From assembly GCA_016288795.1 (NCBI GenBank), contig JAEELI010000017.1, positions 1 through 64,000 of the forward strand: 64,000 nucleotides of DNA, given 5' to 3'. How positions within the stretch are numbered: position 1 is the stretch's first letter; every line of letters begins with the position of its first letter. Below, piece after piece: positions 2,813 through 57,555 of this stretch. Both the position numbers and the translations under genes were made by a program. Source of the stretch: Caryophanales bacterium. GTDB lineage: Bacteria > Bacillota_I > Bacilli_A > RF39 > UBA660. The notes beneath the pieces were generated by a model, which did no database searches, had not been told where the DNA came from, and saw only the letters and a list, made by a program, of their open reading frames with translations.

Positions 2813-2859
2813 TTTTGTTTGAGTATATAATATAAAAGATTTAAGAAATTGGTGATATT

Positions 2860-3549
2860 ATGGATTTTTCTAATTTGAATGTTTTAGTAACTGGAGCCTC
2901 AACTGGTCTTGGAAAAACTTTATGTGATATATTACATAGTTATGGAGCTGATGTTATTGGGGTATATAATACTCATAAAGTTGAGGCTCTATATGATATG
3001 TTTAAATGTGATATTAGTAATGAAATAGAAGTAAAGAAGTTATTTGAAGATGTTCAAAAAAGACATGAAAAAATAGATGTTTTAGTTAATGTTGCTGCAT
3101 TAACCATGGATAATGATATATATGATAAAAGTAAAGAAGAATTTATGAGAGTTTTAGAGGTTAACTTAGTTGGGAGTTTTTTAATGTGTAAATATGCTTC
3201 TTTAGTTCCCGAGTTAAAAGTCATAATTAATATATCTTCTACTGATGCTTCTTCAACATATAGTGTTTTATCTATGGACTATGCTTCTTCTAAAGCAGGA
3301 CTAGAAAATTTAACAAAAAATTTAGCTCAAAGATTTCCTAATCTAAAGGTATGTGCTTTATCACCAAATTGGATTAATACCCAATCTGTCTTAGATATGG
3401 AACCTAATTATTTAAAAGAAGAATTAAAAAGAATTAACCAAAAAGAATTATTAAAAAAAGAAGATGTAGCTTTAAAAATAATAGAAATGATAATAAATGA
3501 TGATATAAGAAGCGGTGAAATAATTAAAATGGGTGATGTAGATGAATAA
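2860..3549 (+). CDS. Short-chain dehydrogenase/reductase (SDR)
   Basis: This 229-residue protein has the classical SDR features: the cofactor loop TGASTGLG near residue 11, the NVAAL stretch (usual NNAG) near residue 77, ISSTDAS carrying the catalytic Ser, and YASSK with the catalytic Tyr and Lys near residue 147. It is therefore an NAD(P)-dependent oxidoreductase, substrate unknown. Its stop overlaps the start of the next gene by 8 bp, which indicates co-translation with a PLP enzyme. GGTGAT precedes the ATG. Confidence 0.85.
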   Translation: MDFSNLNVLVTGASTGLGKTLCDILHSYGADVIGVYNTHKVEALYDMFKCDISNEIEVKKLFEDVQKRHEKIDVLVNVAALTMDNDIYDKSKEEFMRVLEVNLVGSFLMCKYASLVPELKVIINISSTDASSTYSVLSMDYASSKAGLENLTKNLAQRFPNLKVCALSPNWINTQSVLDMEPNYLKEELKRINQKELLKKEDVALKIIEMIINDDIRSGEIIKMGDVDE

Positions 3550-4798
3550 GTATTTAGAGAGTTTTAATATAAATAAAGATATATATAATCTAGTTTTAGA
3601 AGAAGAGGAAAAATTAAAAAATATCTTTACTGCTTTAGATAATAATTGTTTCAATAACACTTTAAAAGTTTTAAATGCATTTCATGAAGAAAATATTCAA
3701 GAAAGTGATTTTTTTGGCACAACTGGATATGGATATGGAGATATTGGAAGAGAAAAAATAGAAAGAGTATTTGCAAGAGTTTTAGGAGGCGAAGATGCCT
3801 TAGTTAGAAACCAATTTATTTCTGGAACTCATGCTTTAACTGTTACTTTATTTGGCTTACTAAGACCTAATGATAAAATATTAAGTATAACGGGAACTCC
3901 TTATGATACATTACATGAAGTTATAGGTATTAAAGATAATCCTAGTTCTTTAAAATCATATGGTATTACTTATGATCAAATTGACTTAAAGGATAATGAT
4001 TTCAATTGTCCTAACATTATAAATTATTTAAATAATAATTCAGTTAAATTAATTGAAATCCAAAGGAGTAGAGGCTACTCCCAAAGGGATAGTATATCTA
4101 TAGATAAAATTGAAAAAATAATAAAAGAGATAAAAAAAGTAAATAAAAATGTCTTAATTATGGTAGATAATTGTTACTGTGAATTTGTTGAAGAAAAATC
4201 TCCTTTAGAGGTAGGTGCCGATATTATAGTTGGTTCTTTAATTAAAAACTTAGGCGGTGGAATCGCTTCTAATGGTGGTTATGTAGCAGGAAAAAAAGAT
4301 TTAATTAAACTAGTATCAGAAAGATTAACTGTTCCGGGAGAAGGCAAAGAAGTTGGGCCTTCACTTCACGCTAATAAAGAGATATTAATGGGCATATATC
4401 ATGCCCCAAGTGTAGTTAATAGTAGTCTAAAAGTAGCTGTTCTAACTAGTAAAGTTCTTGATAAACTAGGATATAATGTTAATCCTAAATATGATGATAA
4501 AAGAGTAGATATAGTTCAAACAATTATTTTTAACGATAAGGAAAAATTGATTAAGTATTGTGAAGGAATCCAAGCTTGTTCAGCAATAGATTCTAATGTT
4601 CTTCCAATACCTACAGATATGCCAGGTTATGAAGATAAAATTATTATGGCGTCTGGTTCCTTCACTCAGGGATCTTCCATAGAGATATCTTGTGATGGTC
4701 CTTTGAAAAAGCCATATATGGCTTTTCAACAAGGATCTTTAACATATGAATATGGTAAATTAGCTGTAATGAGCGCGATTAGCAAAATAGTTGATTAG
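3542..4798 (+). CDS. PLP-dependent methionine gamma-lyase family protein (YnbB/'aluminium resistance' type)
   Basis: The product has 418 residues and belongs to the fold-type I PLP group annotated as methionine gamma-lyase family or aluminium resistance protein (B. subtilis YnbB). Visible signatures are GTTGYGYGDIGRE near residue 60, QFISGTHAL near 93, VDNCYCEF near 198, and IVGSLIKNLGGG near 230, where the Lys should bind PLP. These proteins are predicted Cys/Met-metabolism lyases, but the true reaction is not established. The length is normal for the family. It overlaps the SDR gene, and no terminator separates it from the secE promoter. Confidence 0.85.
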   Translation: MNKYLESFNINKDIYNLVLEEEEKLKNIFTALDNNCFNNTLKVLNAFHEENIQESDFFGTTGYGYGDIGREKIERVFARVLGGEDALVRNQFISGTHALTVTLFGLLRPNDKILSITGTPYDTLHEVIGIKDNPSSLKSYGITYDQIDLKDNDFNCPNIINYLNNNSVKLIEIQRSRGYSQRDSISIDKIEKIIKEIKKVNKNVLIMVDNCYCEFVEEKSPLEVGADIIVGSLIKNLGGGIASNGGYVAGKKDLIKLVSERLTVPGEGKEVGPSLHANKEILMGIYHAPSVVNSSLKVAVLTSKVLDKLGYNVNPKYDDKRVDIVQTIIFNDKEKLIKYCEGIQACSAIDSNVLPIPTDMPGYEDKIIMASGSFTQGSSIEISCDGPLKKPYMAFQQGSLTYEYGKLAVMSAISKIVD

Positions 4799-11413: not shown

Positions 11414-11475
11414 TTAATTTATCTTCTTTTTATTGCACAAAGTATAACTTCATGATAAACTATTTTTAGTTATTT

Positions 11476-11552
11476 AGCCCGTTGGTGAAGCGGTTCAACA
11501 CACTGCGTTCTCAGCGCAGCATTCACGGGTTCGAACCCCGTACGGGTTACCA
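11476..11552 (+). tRNA. tRNA-Glu (anticodon CTC)
   Basis: A complete cloverleaf of 77 nt with encoded CCA. Acceptor AGCCCGT pairs with ACGGGTT (including one G-U). The D-stem is GTG/CAC with an 11-nt loop containing GCGGTT. The anticodon stem CTGCG/CGCAG encloses TTCTCAG, so the anticodon is CTC. The T-arm is ACGGG-TTCGAAC-CCCGT. The identity follows from CTC reading GAG and from similarity to Bacillota tRNA-Glu. Confidence 0.93.
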
Positions 11553-13854: not shown

Positions 13855-14499
13855 ATGAGAGGAAGAGGATTCAAACGTGATGTTCAACTAATTCTTATTT
13901 CAGTAATAATTCTAACTATTACCACGATAAGAGTATCCTATTCATATGTTTTTTCCGTTAAATCTCAAACTACGATCCAAAAAATCACTGCCGGAGATTT
14001 GGAAGTGACAATTAATGGCTCTTCAGCATTAAGTGGTGATGAATTGTATCCAATTGACGAAGATGAATTGCCAACTAGTTCTAATAGCACAATTAGTTCA
14101 AATTATTCTTATGCAACTTTGGTATTAAATAATACTGGTAATTTAGATGCTGATTATTCTGTTAGTTTAGAATATGATGATTTACCAAATGGTGTTTCTT
14201 CTTCAGATTTATTATCTATGCAATACATGGTTATAGGCATATATGATGTAACTAATAATGCTTGGGTTAATTTTGGAACTGCTCAAAACACCAAGTATTG
14301 GACATTAGTTACAAATTTAACTCCTACAAATCAAAATGTATATCCTATAATTAGAAATATAGTTCAAGCTTCAGCATCAAGAAGTTATCGGATATATGTA
14401 TGGCTAGAGGAAGGTACTCCAGTATCAGAAATTGGAAAATATGTTTATTTAAAATTGGAAGTTAAAAGCGCAACCGTAAATGGAAGAATTGAGGAATAG
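13855..14499 (+). CDS. TasA/CalY-like exported surface protein (SipW-type signal)
   Basis: The 214-residue protein starts with a basic segment and a hydrophobic stretch ending in SYSYVFSVKSQTT, then ITAGDLEVTI. This is the hallmark N-terminus of the camelysin/TasA family, cleaved by SipW-type signal peptidases. The mature part is beta-rich, with a typical LVLNNTGNLDADYSVSLEY strand pair, and lacks Cys. Family members form biofilm fibres or are secreted proteases or adhesins. The gene is 11 bp upstream of a calcium-type repeat protein, so the two probably act together at the cell surface. No SipW gene is in the window. Confidence 0.72.
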   Translation: MRGRGFKRDVQLILISVIILTITTIRVSYSYVFSVKSQTTIQKITAGDLEVTINGSSALSGDELYPIDEDELPTSSNSTISSNYSYATLVLNNTGNLDADYSVSLEYDDLPNGVSSSDLLSMQYMVIGIYDVTNNAWVNFGTAQNTKYWTLVTNLTPTNQNVYPIIRNIVQASASRSYRIYVWLEEGTPVSEIGKYVYLKLEVKSATVNGRIEE

Positions 14500-14510
14500 G
14501 TGAGTTAATA

Positions 14511-16598
14511 ATGGAAGAAAAAAACATTAAAAAGAAAAAGTTAATGTCAATAGTTATTATGGTTATCATAATGTTAATGTGCTTTATATTAATTGTTGAT
14601 GATTTTATTATTGAAATAGATACAGGATATCGAAGAGGAGGCGGCAAGAGAAGCCAAGATGATCCTGGTGAATTTATTGGATACATCATTATTAACTATG
14701 ATTTGGATGGCGATGGTATTCCTGATATCAATATCGATATTGATGGAGATAATATTTGTGATCTTAACTGTGATTCAACAGGAAATAAAAAAGCCGATTA
14801 TAACATTGATGTTGATGGCGATGGAGTAGCAGACGTAAATATTGATACTAATGGTGATAAGAAACCAGATGTTAATATAGACTCTACCGGAAATAATAAG
14901 CCTGATTTAAATATCGACTTAAACGGCGATGGAAAACCAGATGTTAATGTTGATACTAATGGTGATGGTAAAGCGGACGAAAATCTTACTAACATCGATT
15001 CTGATGGTGATGGTAAATGCGATGTAAACTGTGATACTAATGGCGATGGTTACCCAGATACAAATATAGATATTAATCATGATGGCAAACCAGATGTTAA
15101 TATCGATACTGATGGTAATGGTGTTGCTGATACAAATATAGATATTGATCGTGATGGCAAACCAGATGTTAATGTTGATACTGATGGTGATGGTGATGCA
15201 GATAAAAATTTGACTAATACCGATACCAATAAAGATGGTAAATGTGATTTAAACTGTGATACAAATAAAGATGGTTATCCTGATACAAATATAGATATAA
15301 ATGGAGATGGAAAACCAGACATAAATATTGATACAAACAAAGATGGCAAATGTGATTTAAATTGTGACACCAATGGAGATGGCAAACCAGACTTAAATCT
15401 TGATACTAATAAAGATGGTAAGTGTGATTTAAAATGTGATACCAATGGAGATGGCAAACCAGATACAAACATTGATGTTAATTATGATGGTTCATGCGAT
15501 TTAAACTGTGATACTAATGGTGATGGCAAACCAGATACAAACATTGATACAGATAAAAATGGAGTTCCAGATTTAAATATTGACCTTGATAAAGATGGCA
15601 AATGTGATTTAAACTGCGATACTAATGGTGATGGTAAACCAGATACAAATACAACAAATTCAACCACTGGAAAAGATGGCAAATGTGAAGTAAACTGTGA
15701 TATTAATGGAGATGGAAGGCCAGATACAAACATCGATACTAATGGCGACGGCAAACCAGATATTAATTTAGATACTGATAATAATGGCAAGCCAGACACA
15801 AATATAGATATTAATGGTGATGGTAAACCAGATGTTAATGTTGATACTAATGGAGATGGTAAACCGGATACAAATCTAGTTAATACTGATCGTGATGATA
15901 ATGGCAAGCCAGATTTAAACGTTGATACAAATGGTGATGGTTATCCTGATTTAAATATTGATATAGATGGCGATGGCAAACCTGATTTAAATATCGATCC
16001 TTCTATAGAAAGCATCAAGATTATCGACGAAACATCTAGTTCTACAATAAATACAAACGTAAGCGAAGCAGTAGATGTTTTAGTTTCAATGTTAAACTCT
16101 GGAGATATAGATTTCTTTGTTCCAGCTGAAAGCATGACTAAAGATGCAGTTGGAGAAAATGAATATGTTGAAATTAAGAGTTTAGCCGGAACAAACTCAA
16201 TTTCATTAAAATCTCAAAGTGGAAAATCAAGATGTAAATATTCAATTAAGTTCTCATTAGTTAAAAATGAAATTGAAAATAAATATATTAAAAATGATAG
16301 TCCAATGGGAACTTTGAAAAATCAATTAATATTTAATATGCATGGTTATGAAAACAACAAAAAAGAACCAGGAACTAAAGATTATTCATTTGATGTTGTA
16401 GCATTAAATAAAGGTGTATACGAAATAAAAGATGTATATATAACTAATGATATGAAAGATAATAATCCAACAGTTCATAATTGGAATTATAATATGATAT
16501 TTAGAAATTATCGCGATTATAACCAAGCAAACAATGCTGGAAAGAAATCATCAGCTACAATTGAATTTAAAATACAAGAATGTGAAAGAGTAAAATAG
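14511..16598 (+). CDS. Membrane-anchored giant Asp/Asn-Gly repeat (thrombospondin type 3/dockerin-like calcium-binding) protein
   Basis: The 695-residue protein has a basic start, one hydrophobic anchor (residues 11-33) and a Gly/Arg/Ser linker. About 36 tandem copies of a 12-residue unit of the form DTNGDGKPDxNI follow (residues 64-496). A non-repetitive C-terminal domain of about 195 residues (from IESIKIIDETSSST) ends the protein. The repeat has the calcium loop pattern D-x-D/N-x-D-G-x-x-D. Some units carry Cys (GKCDLNCDTNGDG), which could add disulfides. It is exported in type II orientation. AGGTGAG precedes the ATG. It probably forms a rigid, calcium-stabilised stalk partnered with the upstream TasA-like protein. 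Confidence 0.8.
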   Translation: MEEKNIKKKKLMSIVIMVIIMLMCFILIVDDFIIEIDTGYRRGGGKRSQDDPGEFIGYIIINYDLDGDGIPDINIDIDGDNICDLNCDSTGNKKADYNIDVDGDGVADVNIDTNGDKKPDVNIDSTGNNKPDLNIDLNGDGKPDVNVDTNGDGKADENLTNIDSDGDGKCDVNCDTNGDGYPDTNIDINHDGKPDVNIDTDGNGVADTNIDIDRDGKPDVNVDTDGDGDADKNLTNTDTNKDGKCDLNCDTNKDGYPDTNIDINGDGKPDINIDTNKDGKCDLNCDTNGDGKPDLNLDTNKDGKCDLKCDTNGDGKPDTNIDVNYDGSCDLNCDTNGDGKPDTNIDTDKNGVPDLNIDLDKDGKCDLNCDTNGDGKPDTNTTNSTTGKDGKCEVNCDINGDGRPDTNIDTNGDGKPDINLDTDNNGKPDTNIDINGDGKPDVNVDTNGDGKPDTNLVNTDRDDNGKPDLNVDTNGDGYPDLNIDIDGDGKPDLNIDPSIESIKIIDETSSSTINTNVSEAVDVLVSMLNSGDIDFFVPAESMTKDAVGENEYVEIKSLAGTNSISLKSQSGKSRCKYSIKFSLVKNEIENKYIKNDSPMGTLKNQLIFNMHGYENNKKEPGTKDYSFDVVALNKGVYEIKDVYITNDMKDNNPTVHNWNYNMIFRNYRDYNQANNAGKKSSATIEFKIQECERVK
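14700..15998 (+). repeat. Tandem 36-bp coding repeat (12-residue Asp-rich unit)
   Basis: About 36 degenerate copies of a GAT-ACT-AAT-GGT-GAT-GGT-AAA-CCA-GAT type unit, with third-position variation. The array is wholly inside the coding frame. On the reverse strand it produces long false open frames full of SGLPSPLVS. Confidence 0.9.
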
Positions 16599-55958: not shown

Positions 55959-55986
55959 ATTGTTATTGCTTTTAAGTAAAAAAATA

Positions 55987-56032
55987 GACGCCGTTGTGAT
56001 ACTAGTATTACTACTAATATATCAATAGCGTC
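55987..56032. other. Stacked hairpin in the 55949-56224 intergenic region
   Basis: GACGC/GCGTC, TGATA/TATCA and TAGTA-TTAC-TACTA stack in one rod. An alternative helix joins the left arm to AACGGTGGCGCC (56043-56054). The element carries a 20-nt stretch that recurs inverted at 11859-11878 with one mismatch. Confidence 0.45.
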
Positions 56033-56133
56033 ATCAAACAATAACGGTGGCGCCAAACTTGCGCTTACCTAATATTATTATATGTTATTTTATAAGCATT
56101 ATCAACTACGTTTCCTTTTTCTATTTTATCTTA

Positions 56134-56154
56134 GCGACCACCCTTGGTGGTTGC
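56134..56154. other. GC-rich hairpin upstream of the variable surface gene
   Basis: GCGACCACC-CTT-GGTGGTTGC, a 9-bp stem with one G-U. No T-run follows on the plus strand. It may be a regulatory or protein-binding site. Confidence 0.5.
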
Positions 56155-56224
56155 AATAAAATGCTTCATGAAGTATAATCTAATTATAAGTGTATTAATA
56201 ATACATTCGTGGAGGCTATCTAGA

Positions 56225-57238
56225 ATGGAAAATAGAAAGAAAATAATCATTTATGCTTCAATAGTTTTTGTTAGTTTATTAATTTTAATAGTCGGATCTT
56301 CATATGCATATTTTAGTATTACGTCAACAAACAGTTTTGGAAGTAAAACGATAAGTGCATCAGCGCCAAATATAGGGAGTGTAATTCTAGTAGGAGATAA
56401 TAACACAGTGTCACTTAATTTAAGTGCAGCAGATATGATGAAAAAAACATACAATGTTTATTATTATGGAACAACTAGTGGAACAGCTTCAACCAATCGA
56501 ACCAGTGTTCAAATAGCGCATACAGAAGTAAATGGCGAAGGATATTTTAATTGTAGTTACACATTACAAGCAACAAATTCAGGAACAAATAACTTGTATA
56601 CAGCATTCCAAGGGTGGAGTGGCAAATCAACTGGCCAAATAGTTTTGACGGTAGGAGGGAATACATATGACTTTAATTCAGCCAATCTTTTTCCAAAAAC
56701 AATACAAGGAACAACGTATGGAGCAACAAGTAGTAGTTCGAAAATAATAGAAGCTAGTCTAAAGTTTTTAAATAATAATGTTGATCAAAGTGTATTAAAA
56801 AATAAAGATATCACAATAACATTGACAGCAACAAGCTTTAGTTGTTCGATAGCAGATGGACCATATTATTATGTGTTTGATTCGACAAGGCCATCATATA
56901 ATTTTATGTCTGTCCCATTAGAAAGTAATAGTGGGTTAGATTATTATATGATTGGAGATAATAATGGCGACTATTCAATGGTATGTGGAGTATTTAGTGG
57001 AACAGAATATTGTGTCCAACCAAACTCATGGAGTAATGTAAGCACAATAAAATCCGAAATGGAAGCCTTAGGAGCAACATGTGATTCATACATGTTAGAA
57101 GGCGGTGTTTTAGCCTGTTATAATGATTCGGTCTTTTGCAATGTCAGTTTTGATGGCTTCGTGGTATGCGGCTCTATGTCGGCCGGTGATTATTGTCGCA
57201 TCGAATCTTCTCGTGGTGTTGCGGGATGCGCTGACTAA
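56225..57238 (+). CDS. Exported surface protein (SipW-type signal) with an atypical, Cys-rich C-terminal segment
   Basis: ATG at 56225 is set by GGAGG nine bases upstream. The 337-residue protein has a basic start, a hydrophobic segment and GSSYAYFSITSTNSFGS, a camelysin/TasA-like export signal. Beta-rich repeats with many Thr/Ser/Asn (about residues 40-215) follow, then a tail rich in Cys, Gly and Val (FDGFVVCGSMSAGDYCRIES and RGVAGCAD). The last 35 codons have an abrupt change of codon use: mostly NNC/NNT endings, GC rise and A depletion. The tail resembles the variable part of a diversity-generating target, but no reverse transcriptase is in the window. Confidence 0.75.
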   Translation: MENRKKIIIYASIVFVSLLILIVGSSYAYFSITSTNSFGSKTISASAPNIGSVILVGDNNTVSLNLSAADMMKKTYNVYYYGTTSGTASTNRTSVQIAHTEVNGEGYFNCSYTLQATNSGTNNLYTAFQGWSGKSTGQIVLTVGGNTYDFNSANLFPKTIQGTTYGATSSSSKIIEASLKFLNNNVDQSVLKNKDITITLTATSFSCSIADGPYYYVFDSTRPSYNFMSVPLESNSGLDYYMIGDNNGDYSMVCGVFSGTEYCVQPNSWSNVSTIKSEMEALGATCDSYMLEGGVLACYNDSVFCNVSFDGFVVCGSMSAGDYCRIESSRGVAGCAD

Positions 57239-57270
57239 GTCGGCATTCTCGATAGTCTTCGCGCTACCGT
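57121..57270 (+). other. GC-shifted, A-poor segment at the 3' end of the surface gene
   Basis: By hand count about 65 of 120 bases are G or C in 57151-57270, and only about 23 of 160 are A in 57121-57280, unlike the AT-rich rest. The shift continues past the stop, where GCTGAC-TAA-GTCGGC and CGATAGTC/GCTACCG form small hairpins. In the coding part about 28 of 35 codons end in C or T. Confidence 0.7.
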
Positions 57271-57306
57271 TTCATTTTCTTAATCAAATAATATATAATT
57301 CTATTC

Positions 57307-57334
57307 TTGCATAAAAAATAAATTGTGCTATAAT
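57307..57334 (+). promoter_or_regulatory. Promoter of the thrS T-box transcript
   Basis: TTGCAT (57307-57312) and TATAAT (57329-57334), 16-bp spacing. Confidence 0.6.
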
Positions 57335-57340
57335 TATTTA

Positions 57341-57555
57341 TAGATTTTATTTAAATATTTTGATTAGGACAAGATTATTATTGATTTTATTTAGCGAGAT
57401 TGCAAATGGTGAAAGGCAATTATAAATAGATAATAGTTACTACCTATGAATTGAACTCGAAAGAGATTTCCGGTGAAAACCGTTATAGTAATTAAGAAAA
57501 ATAAAGGGATGGTACCGTGCATATGCACTCCTTAGGAATCATCCTTTTTTATTTG
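57341..57555 (+). promoter_or_regulatory. T-box leader of the unknown gene-thrS operon (terminator type)
   Basis: A longer Stem I (AATGGTGAAAGGC loop, Thr codons ACT/ACC at 57439-57444) leads to the T-box AGGGATGGTACCGTG at 57505-57519. The antiterminator pairs AGGGA with TCCTT, with GTGC-ATAT-GCAC above. The competing terminator pairs AAAGGGATG with CATCCTTT and runs into T6. Uncharged tRNA-Thr would allow read-through. Confidence 0.88.

Follow-up and report, generated by a model that had tools for sequence, protein, structure and literature searches.

A G+C-rich, A-poor tail on a surface-protein gene of a Caryophanales bacterium as a probable orphan target of a diversity-generating retroelement

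Introduction

In the window analyzed here, a stretch of 64,000 nucleotides from a Caryophanales bacterium, one gene for an exported surface protein ends in a short tail whose base composition departs from that of the DNA around it. How did this tail arise? An earlier note on the same DNA had suggested either a variable region (VR) of a diversity-generating retroelement (DGR) or a cassette acquired by recombination. Remote DGR targets escape searches that are centered on the reverse transcriptase (RT) (Roux et al., PMC8144416). If orphan VRs could be recognized by A-depletion alone, this would reveal remote or extinct targets that RT-first searches miss by design. We therefore analyzed the tail in the window, in its own genome (G000; 979 kb or 0.98 Mb, 22 contigs, 92.9% complete) and in relatives. 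The own-genome tests consisted of searches across the assembly and of the stretches surrounding matches.

Results

The gene encodes an exported protein with a Cys-rich C-terminal domain

The open frame at 56225..57238 (+ strand) encodes a protein of 337 aa with an N-terminal membrane helix (residues 3-29), a beta-rich body and a Cys-rich C-terminal domain (CTD). The CTD was placed at 56945..57235 (+) by profile matches, its Cys/Gly pattern and the AlphaFold2 model, and it contains the two G-x-V-x-C-like strands described in the earlier note, present as DGFVVC and RGVAGC. The whole protein matched no Pfam or NCBIfam model. A scan for close orthologues across a wider collection of genome contigs, one that may exclude the window's own genome, gave none. 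AlphaFold2 gave a confident model of the protein (pLDDT 83), which matched no solved structure at E<=0.001 and had no C-type lectin among its listed matches. The CTD alone was modeled with a pLDDT of 90 as one helix and about nine short strands, and such a domain may bind a ligand.

A C-type-lectin fold is usual, though not obligatory, in a DGR variable domain. Foldseek comparison of the CTD model with the PDB returned nothing at E<=0.001, with no C-type lectin among the 50 matches listed, and comparison with viral models likewise gave no match at E<=0.001. DGR variable domains are reported to be C-type lectins throughout, wherever they can be annotated (Roux et al., PMC8144416), which would make the CTD an uncommon scaffold for a DGR. 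No description of the CTD as a DGR target was found in the literature covered, which excludes most subscription papers.

The surroundings of the gene were also surveyed. Just upstream, positions 55975-56180 form a strongly structured non-coding stretch (RNA fold z -5.2) with three G+C-containing hairpins and no Rfam match. Downstream, a T-box leader-like Rfam match (57351-57535; 71 bits, under the gathering score of 93) precedes two genes, one small and one threonyl-tRNA synthetase-like. Elsewhere in the window, a 695-aa protein (14511-16598) consists mostly of DxNGDGxxD-type repeats, calcium-binding in appearance, and adjoins a small exported protein (13855-14499); neither matched Pfam.

The tail is depleted of A beyond the effect of its amino acids

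The earlier claim of a G+C-rich, A-poor 3′ end was confirmed: the richest 120-base stretch of the window lies at 57152-57271, with 54.2% G+C and 13% A against a window-wide G+C mean of 27.2% (sd 5.6). The second-richest, at 11474 (49% G+C), is a tRNA-Glu gene (11476-11552). The composition changes abruptly at 57100-57110, and the A-depleted, NNY-rich stretch at 57110..57235 (+), which we read as a DGR variable region, was delimited by composition tests and a third-base score.

To separate base composition from residue choice, the same amino acids of 57110-57235 were recoded by the window's own codon usage in 5000 trials. The observed GC of 0.484 (expected 0.382, sd 0.018) and GC3 of 0.429 (expected 0.156) were each reached in 0 of the 5000 simulations, and A was 0.143 against an expected 0.218 (p=0.0006). 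Amino-acid choice alone was thus rejected as the source of the G+C excess. The codons end mainly in C or T, as the earlier note had it: third positions in the tail hold 9.5% A, 31% C and 48% T, compared with 41% A, 10% C and 38% T in the 120 codons before it. On the coding strand, A falls from 0.38 in the gene body to 0.14 in the tail and T rises from 0.29 to 0.37, indicating that the depletion hits A and not T. At 21.2 bits, 57110-57235 had the highest third-base score among the 16,691 42-codon segments of the window (mean -45.6, sd 13.0); the training set of the model was six tails of relatives, picked for their VR-like look, so that the score classifies the window copy and by itself is no proof of mechanism.

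These values bear on two other origins. Recombination could have brought the tail in from a donor that is richer in G+C and has the same domain, and the abrupt change in composition speaks for this. A G+C-rich donor, however, would cut both A and T, whereas the T of the tail exceeds that of the body; relatives bearing such tails are AT-rich themselves; and no similar tail was matched in the rest of the own genome, in 37 congeners or in phage and plasmid records. A phage or plasmid donor was accordingly rejected, the recombination-acquired cassette of the earlier note gained no support, and we regard import as quite unlikely. It could also be an ordinary fast-evolving Cys/Gly-rich tail, its composition following from the residues chosen and the codons preferred locally, without any special mutator. 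In its favor, the CTD needs Gly, Cys and Val, and paralogous tails diverge without strong G+C enrichment. Nevertheless, the GC3 is far above that expected for the same residues, the pattern is also found in non-coding bases after the stop, and it recurs in several other genera; this explanation is therefore improbable in our judgment.

The composition shift extends past the stop codon

The 35 bases 3′ of the stop (57239..57273, +) contain 54% G+C and 11% A, indicating that the tail pattern extends about 35 bases into non-coding DNA. By composition and position, this G+C-rich, A-poor stretch is a candidate for the DGR recognition repeat (IMH): it occupies the position that the post-stop repeat has in a DGR locus of a relative, G053 (L121). 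BLAST found no second copy of it in the own genome, which also offered no template copy to match it against. The earlier note had described a shift continuing beyond the stop into small hairpins. The shift stood, but the hairpins did not, since 57233-57332 folded no better than its shuffles as a hairpin or cruciform (z -0.1). The same test gave z -2.9 in G053, -5.0 in G093 and -4.6 in G184. A structured RNA within the tail itself was rejected, because it folds like shuffles (z -0.25). Rfam matched nothing on the tail region besides the T-box further on, except for a weak chance match to an MS2 hairpin.

Paralogs in the own genome share the body but not the tail

The tail forms the end of a domain that gave 15 matches in the own genome. 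Eleven of the carriers are full-length paralogs, in which a conserved body precedes the CTD, and the other carriers have different N-termini. Paralogs averaged 49% identity over the body and 51% over the first part of the CTD, compared with 24% in the last ~50 residues, the hyperdivergent tail that follows a conserved LGATC (57083..57235, +). Strongly VR-like third bases were found only in the window copy; the other paralogs were intermediate, and their tails are diverged yet lack strong G+C enrichment.

A dozen paralogs whose bodies are conserved while their tails diverge would also suit antigenic variation, in which silent tail cassettes are used for gene conversion as in pilE/pilS. However, the search of the own genome turned up no copy of the tail that was partial or silent; each paralog with a window-type body and tail is a complete open gene at a site of its own, and the tails of these paralogs have no long DNA blocks in common with the window tail. 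We consider gene conversion of this kind highly improbable.

As a separate observation, three scattered paralogs (C7b in L006, C5a in L008 and C22 in L009) have a nearly identical promoter/leader of ~50 bases directly 5′ of the start codon, pointing to duplication with regulation kept.

The same domain carries A-poor tails in other genera

A profile search found no CTD in the 37 congeneric genomes but matched it in 8 further genomes of the family, where the Cys/Gly pattern is conserved across genera. Its carriers in other genera are type IV pilins (several genomes) and SipW/TasA-like proteins. No CTD was found in phage records and viral contigs, although short divergent queries make this a weak test. 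The tails in G093 (two copies), G166, G314, G201, G184 and G053 contain 49-58% G+C and 13-25% A, within loci of 25-30% G+C. These VR-like tails, from several other genera, are likewise A-poor with C/T-ending codons and a G+C-rich stretch 3′ of the stop. The CTD tails of G305 and G294 are AT-rich.

Pairs of copies within one genome were compared. The two G093 pilins share an identical 99-base block, followed by tails with 34 differing sites, 32 of which fall at codon position 1 or 2; beyond the stop the two copies are again nearly identical as far as a hairpin. Differences in the pilin bodies lie mostly at third positions. Judged from sequence, this pattern is that expected of copies rewritten from one template. 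The tail pair of G314 shows 94 differences spread evenly over codon positions and is too diverged to reveal a DGR pattern. Templates for the tails in G093, G314, G201 and others were not found in the stretches examined, which are parts of the genomes. The sole RT found in G093 is retron-like (QGYPTS motif) and not of the DGR type, and the searched assemblies of G093, G314 and G201 lack a DGR-type RT and the accessory protein Avd despite their VR-like tails.

A DGR in G053 targets a protein ending in a CTD

RTs of the DGR type occur commonly in the genus and the family. They carry GNMTSQ/GNLTSQ-type and YMDD motifs and occur with Avd-like proteins, often also with a small MutS-I-like protein; a ~130-aa protein matching MutS domain I lies beside the Avd and RT genes at L076, L078 (by eye) and L106. 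Canonical pairs of VR and template repeat with A-specific differences stand beside the RTs in G184, G294 and G166, where the targets look C-type-lectin-like by eye. The bona fide VRs found in this analysis have an A content of 0.13-0.23. At the G166 locus L115, a single template lies between two VR copies of 137 bases with identical sequence, as though one cDNA had served to rewrite two targets or duplication had come afterwards.

At the G053 locus L121, the DGR target is a SipW-type matrix protein ending in a CTD, and the template, Avd and RT adjoin it. The target/homologue matches TIGR04090 and PF12389. Between template and tail, 14 of 31 A were changed and 0 of 78 other bases (Fisher 2e-9), with two more changes, both where homology ends. 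A repeat of ~40 bases just past the stop is identical in target and template. The G053 CTD scored 11.4 bits with the own-genome profile alone and 34.9 bits with a family profile built without G053, and 200 shuffled copies reached at most about 11 bits per domain. By these profile scores, it is a distant relative of the window CTD, and the domain family of the window CTD is a bona fide DGR target in G053. The target gene (2852-4255 of the locus) apparently holds two tandem CTD copies; the first matches weakly (9.7 bits), and the variable end belongs to the last copy alone.

No DGR machinery was found in the own assembly

The earlier note had proposed searching the genome for an RT and an A-rich template copy, and neither was found in the 92.9% complete assembly, where absence is not proof. 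Neither PF00078 nor a DGR-RT alignment detected a DGR-type RT (GxxxSQ, YxDD); one of these searches was run without a positive control alongside it, although DGR RTs of congeners were picked up by PF00078. Avd (PF22296) was absent, while the same run found it in the RT-bearing G053, G184, G166, G294, G013 and G030. For a template, BLAST with 57085-57290, a base-or-A pattern of 57150-57210 allowing 3 mismatches, and ungapped scans of the window and the own loci all returned only the gene itself. That the own genome carries a DGR is thus unsupported by its assembly. Since G000, G093, G314 and G201 are 89-96% complete, chance gaps in the assemblies are unlikely to account for the missing locus in all four. 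The machinery has probably been lost, or is sited on an unbinned element, across these genomes.

Discussion

We conclude that the window tail was probably made by a DGR, or works like a DGR target, and that it is best read as a variable region that is now orphan, remote or fossil. Several points favor a DGR: the depletion is A-specific rather than of A+T, goes beyond the amino-acid effect and continues into non-coding bases; the same tail composition occurs in G093, G166, G314, G201, G184 and G053, all of them AT-rich genomes; G053 combines RT, Avd, A-only template changes and a post-stop repeat, and G093 adds its pilin pair; DGR RTs are frequent in both genus and family; and the A content of the tail compares with that of bona fide VRs. 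The reading is weakened by the own assembly, which yielded no RT, Avd, template or significant hairpin, and by the distance of the G053 CTD. The DGR region put forward in the earlier note was thus backed by relatives but not by its own genome, and we infer an origin by DGR for this tail specifically.

In the mechanism that we propose, an ancestor, or cells not represented in the assembly, would have had a DGR RT that worked with Avd to copy a template repeat containing A. The RT would misincorporate at A, and the cDNA would then replace the 3′ end of the gene, for which the G+C-rich recognition repeat after the stop may be used. Repeated A-to-N swaps at codon positions 1 and 2, with template C, T or G at position 3, would leave A-poor NNY codons, and this rewriting would change residues of a Cys-stabilized surface domain. 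The target would now be an orphan, with RT, Avd and template lost (a fossil), located in the missing ~7% of the genome or carried on an unbinned element.

More tentatively, it is possible that the CTD is a further general DGR scaffold, distinct from the C-type lectin, on pilins and SipW-type matrix proteins across this small-genome family. In several genomes including that of the window, the retroelement might act in trans from outside the chromosome bin, or might have been lost, leaving frozen variants multiplied by gene duplication. If a DGR diversifies a small disulfide-rich domain in a relative, the mechanism would not be bound to one fold, and the CTD as a DGR target would mean that pilins and matrix fibers can be hypermutated.

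Compared with known DGRs, such as that of Bordetella phage BPP-1 and those with surface targets in Treponema and Legionella (PMC8144416), the window gene is similar in having a C-terminal, A-poor NNY variable region on an exported protein and a G+C-rich stretch straight after the stop, at the place that the recognition repeat occupies in DGRs, as well as a CTD family that is targeted in G053. It differs in that no RT, Avd, template or hairpin was found in its assembly, and in that the CTD model has no C-type-lectin match. The G053 DGR shares with it a SipW/TasA-type protein, the same CTD family, a variable tail and a G+C-rich repeat after the stop, whereas in G053 the RT, Avd and template adjoin the target and the sequence similarity of its CTD to the window CTD is low. 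Finally, the window protein resembles the SipW-dependent matrix proteins of the TasA/camelysin/BsaA type in its N-terminal helix and the beta-rich exported body behind it, but it matches none of the NCBIfam/Pfam models and carries an added hypervariable Cys-rich tail.
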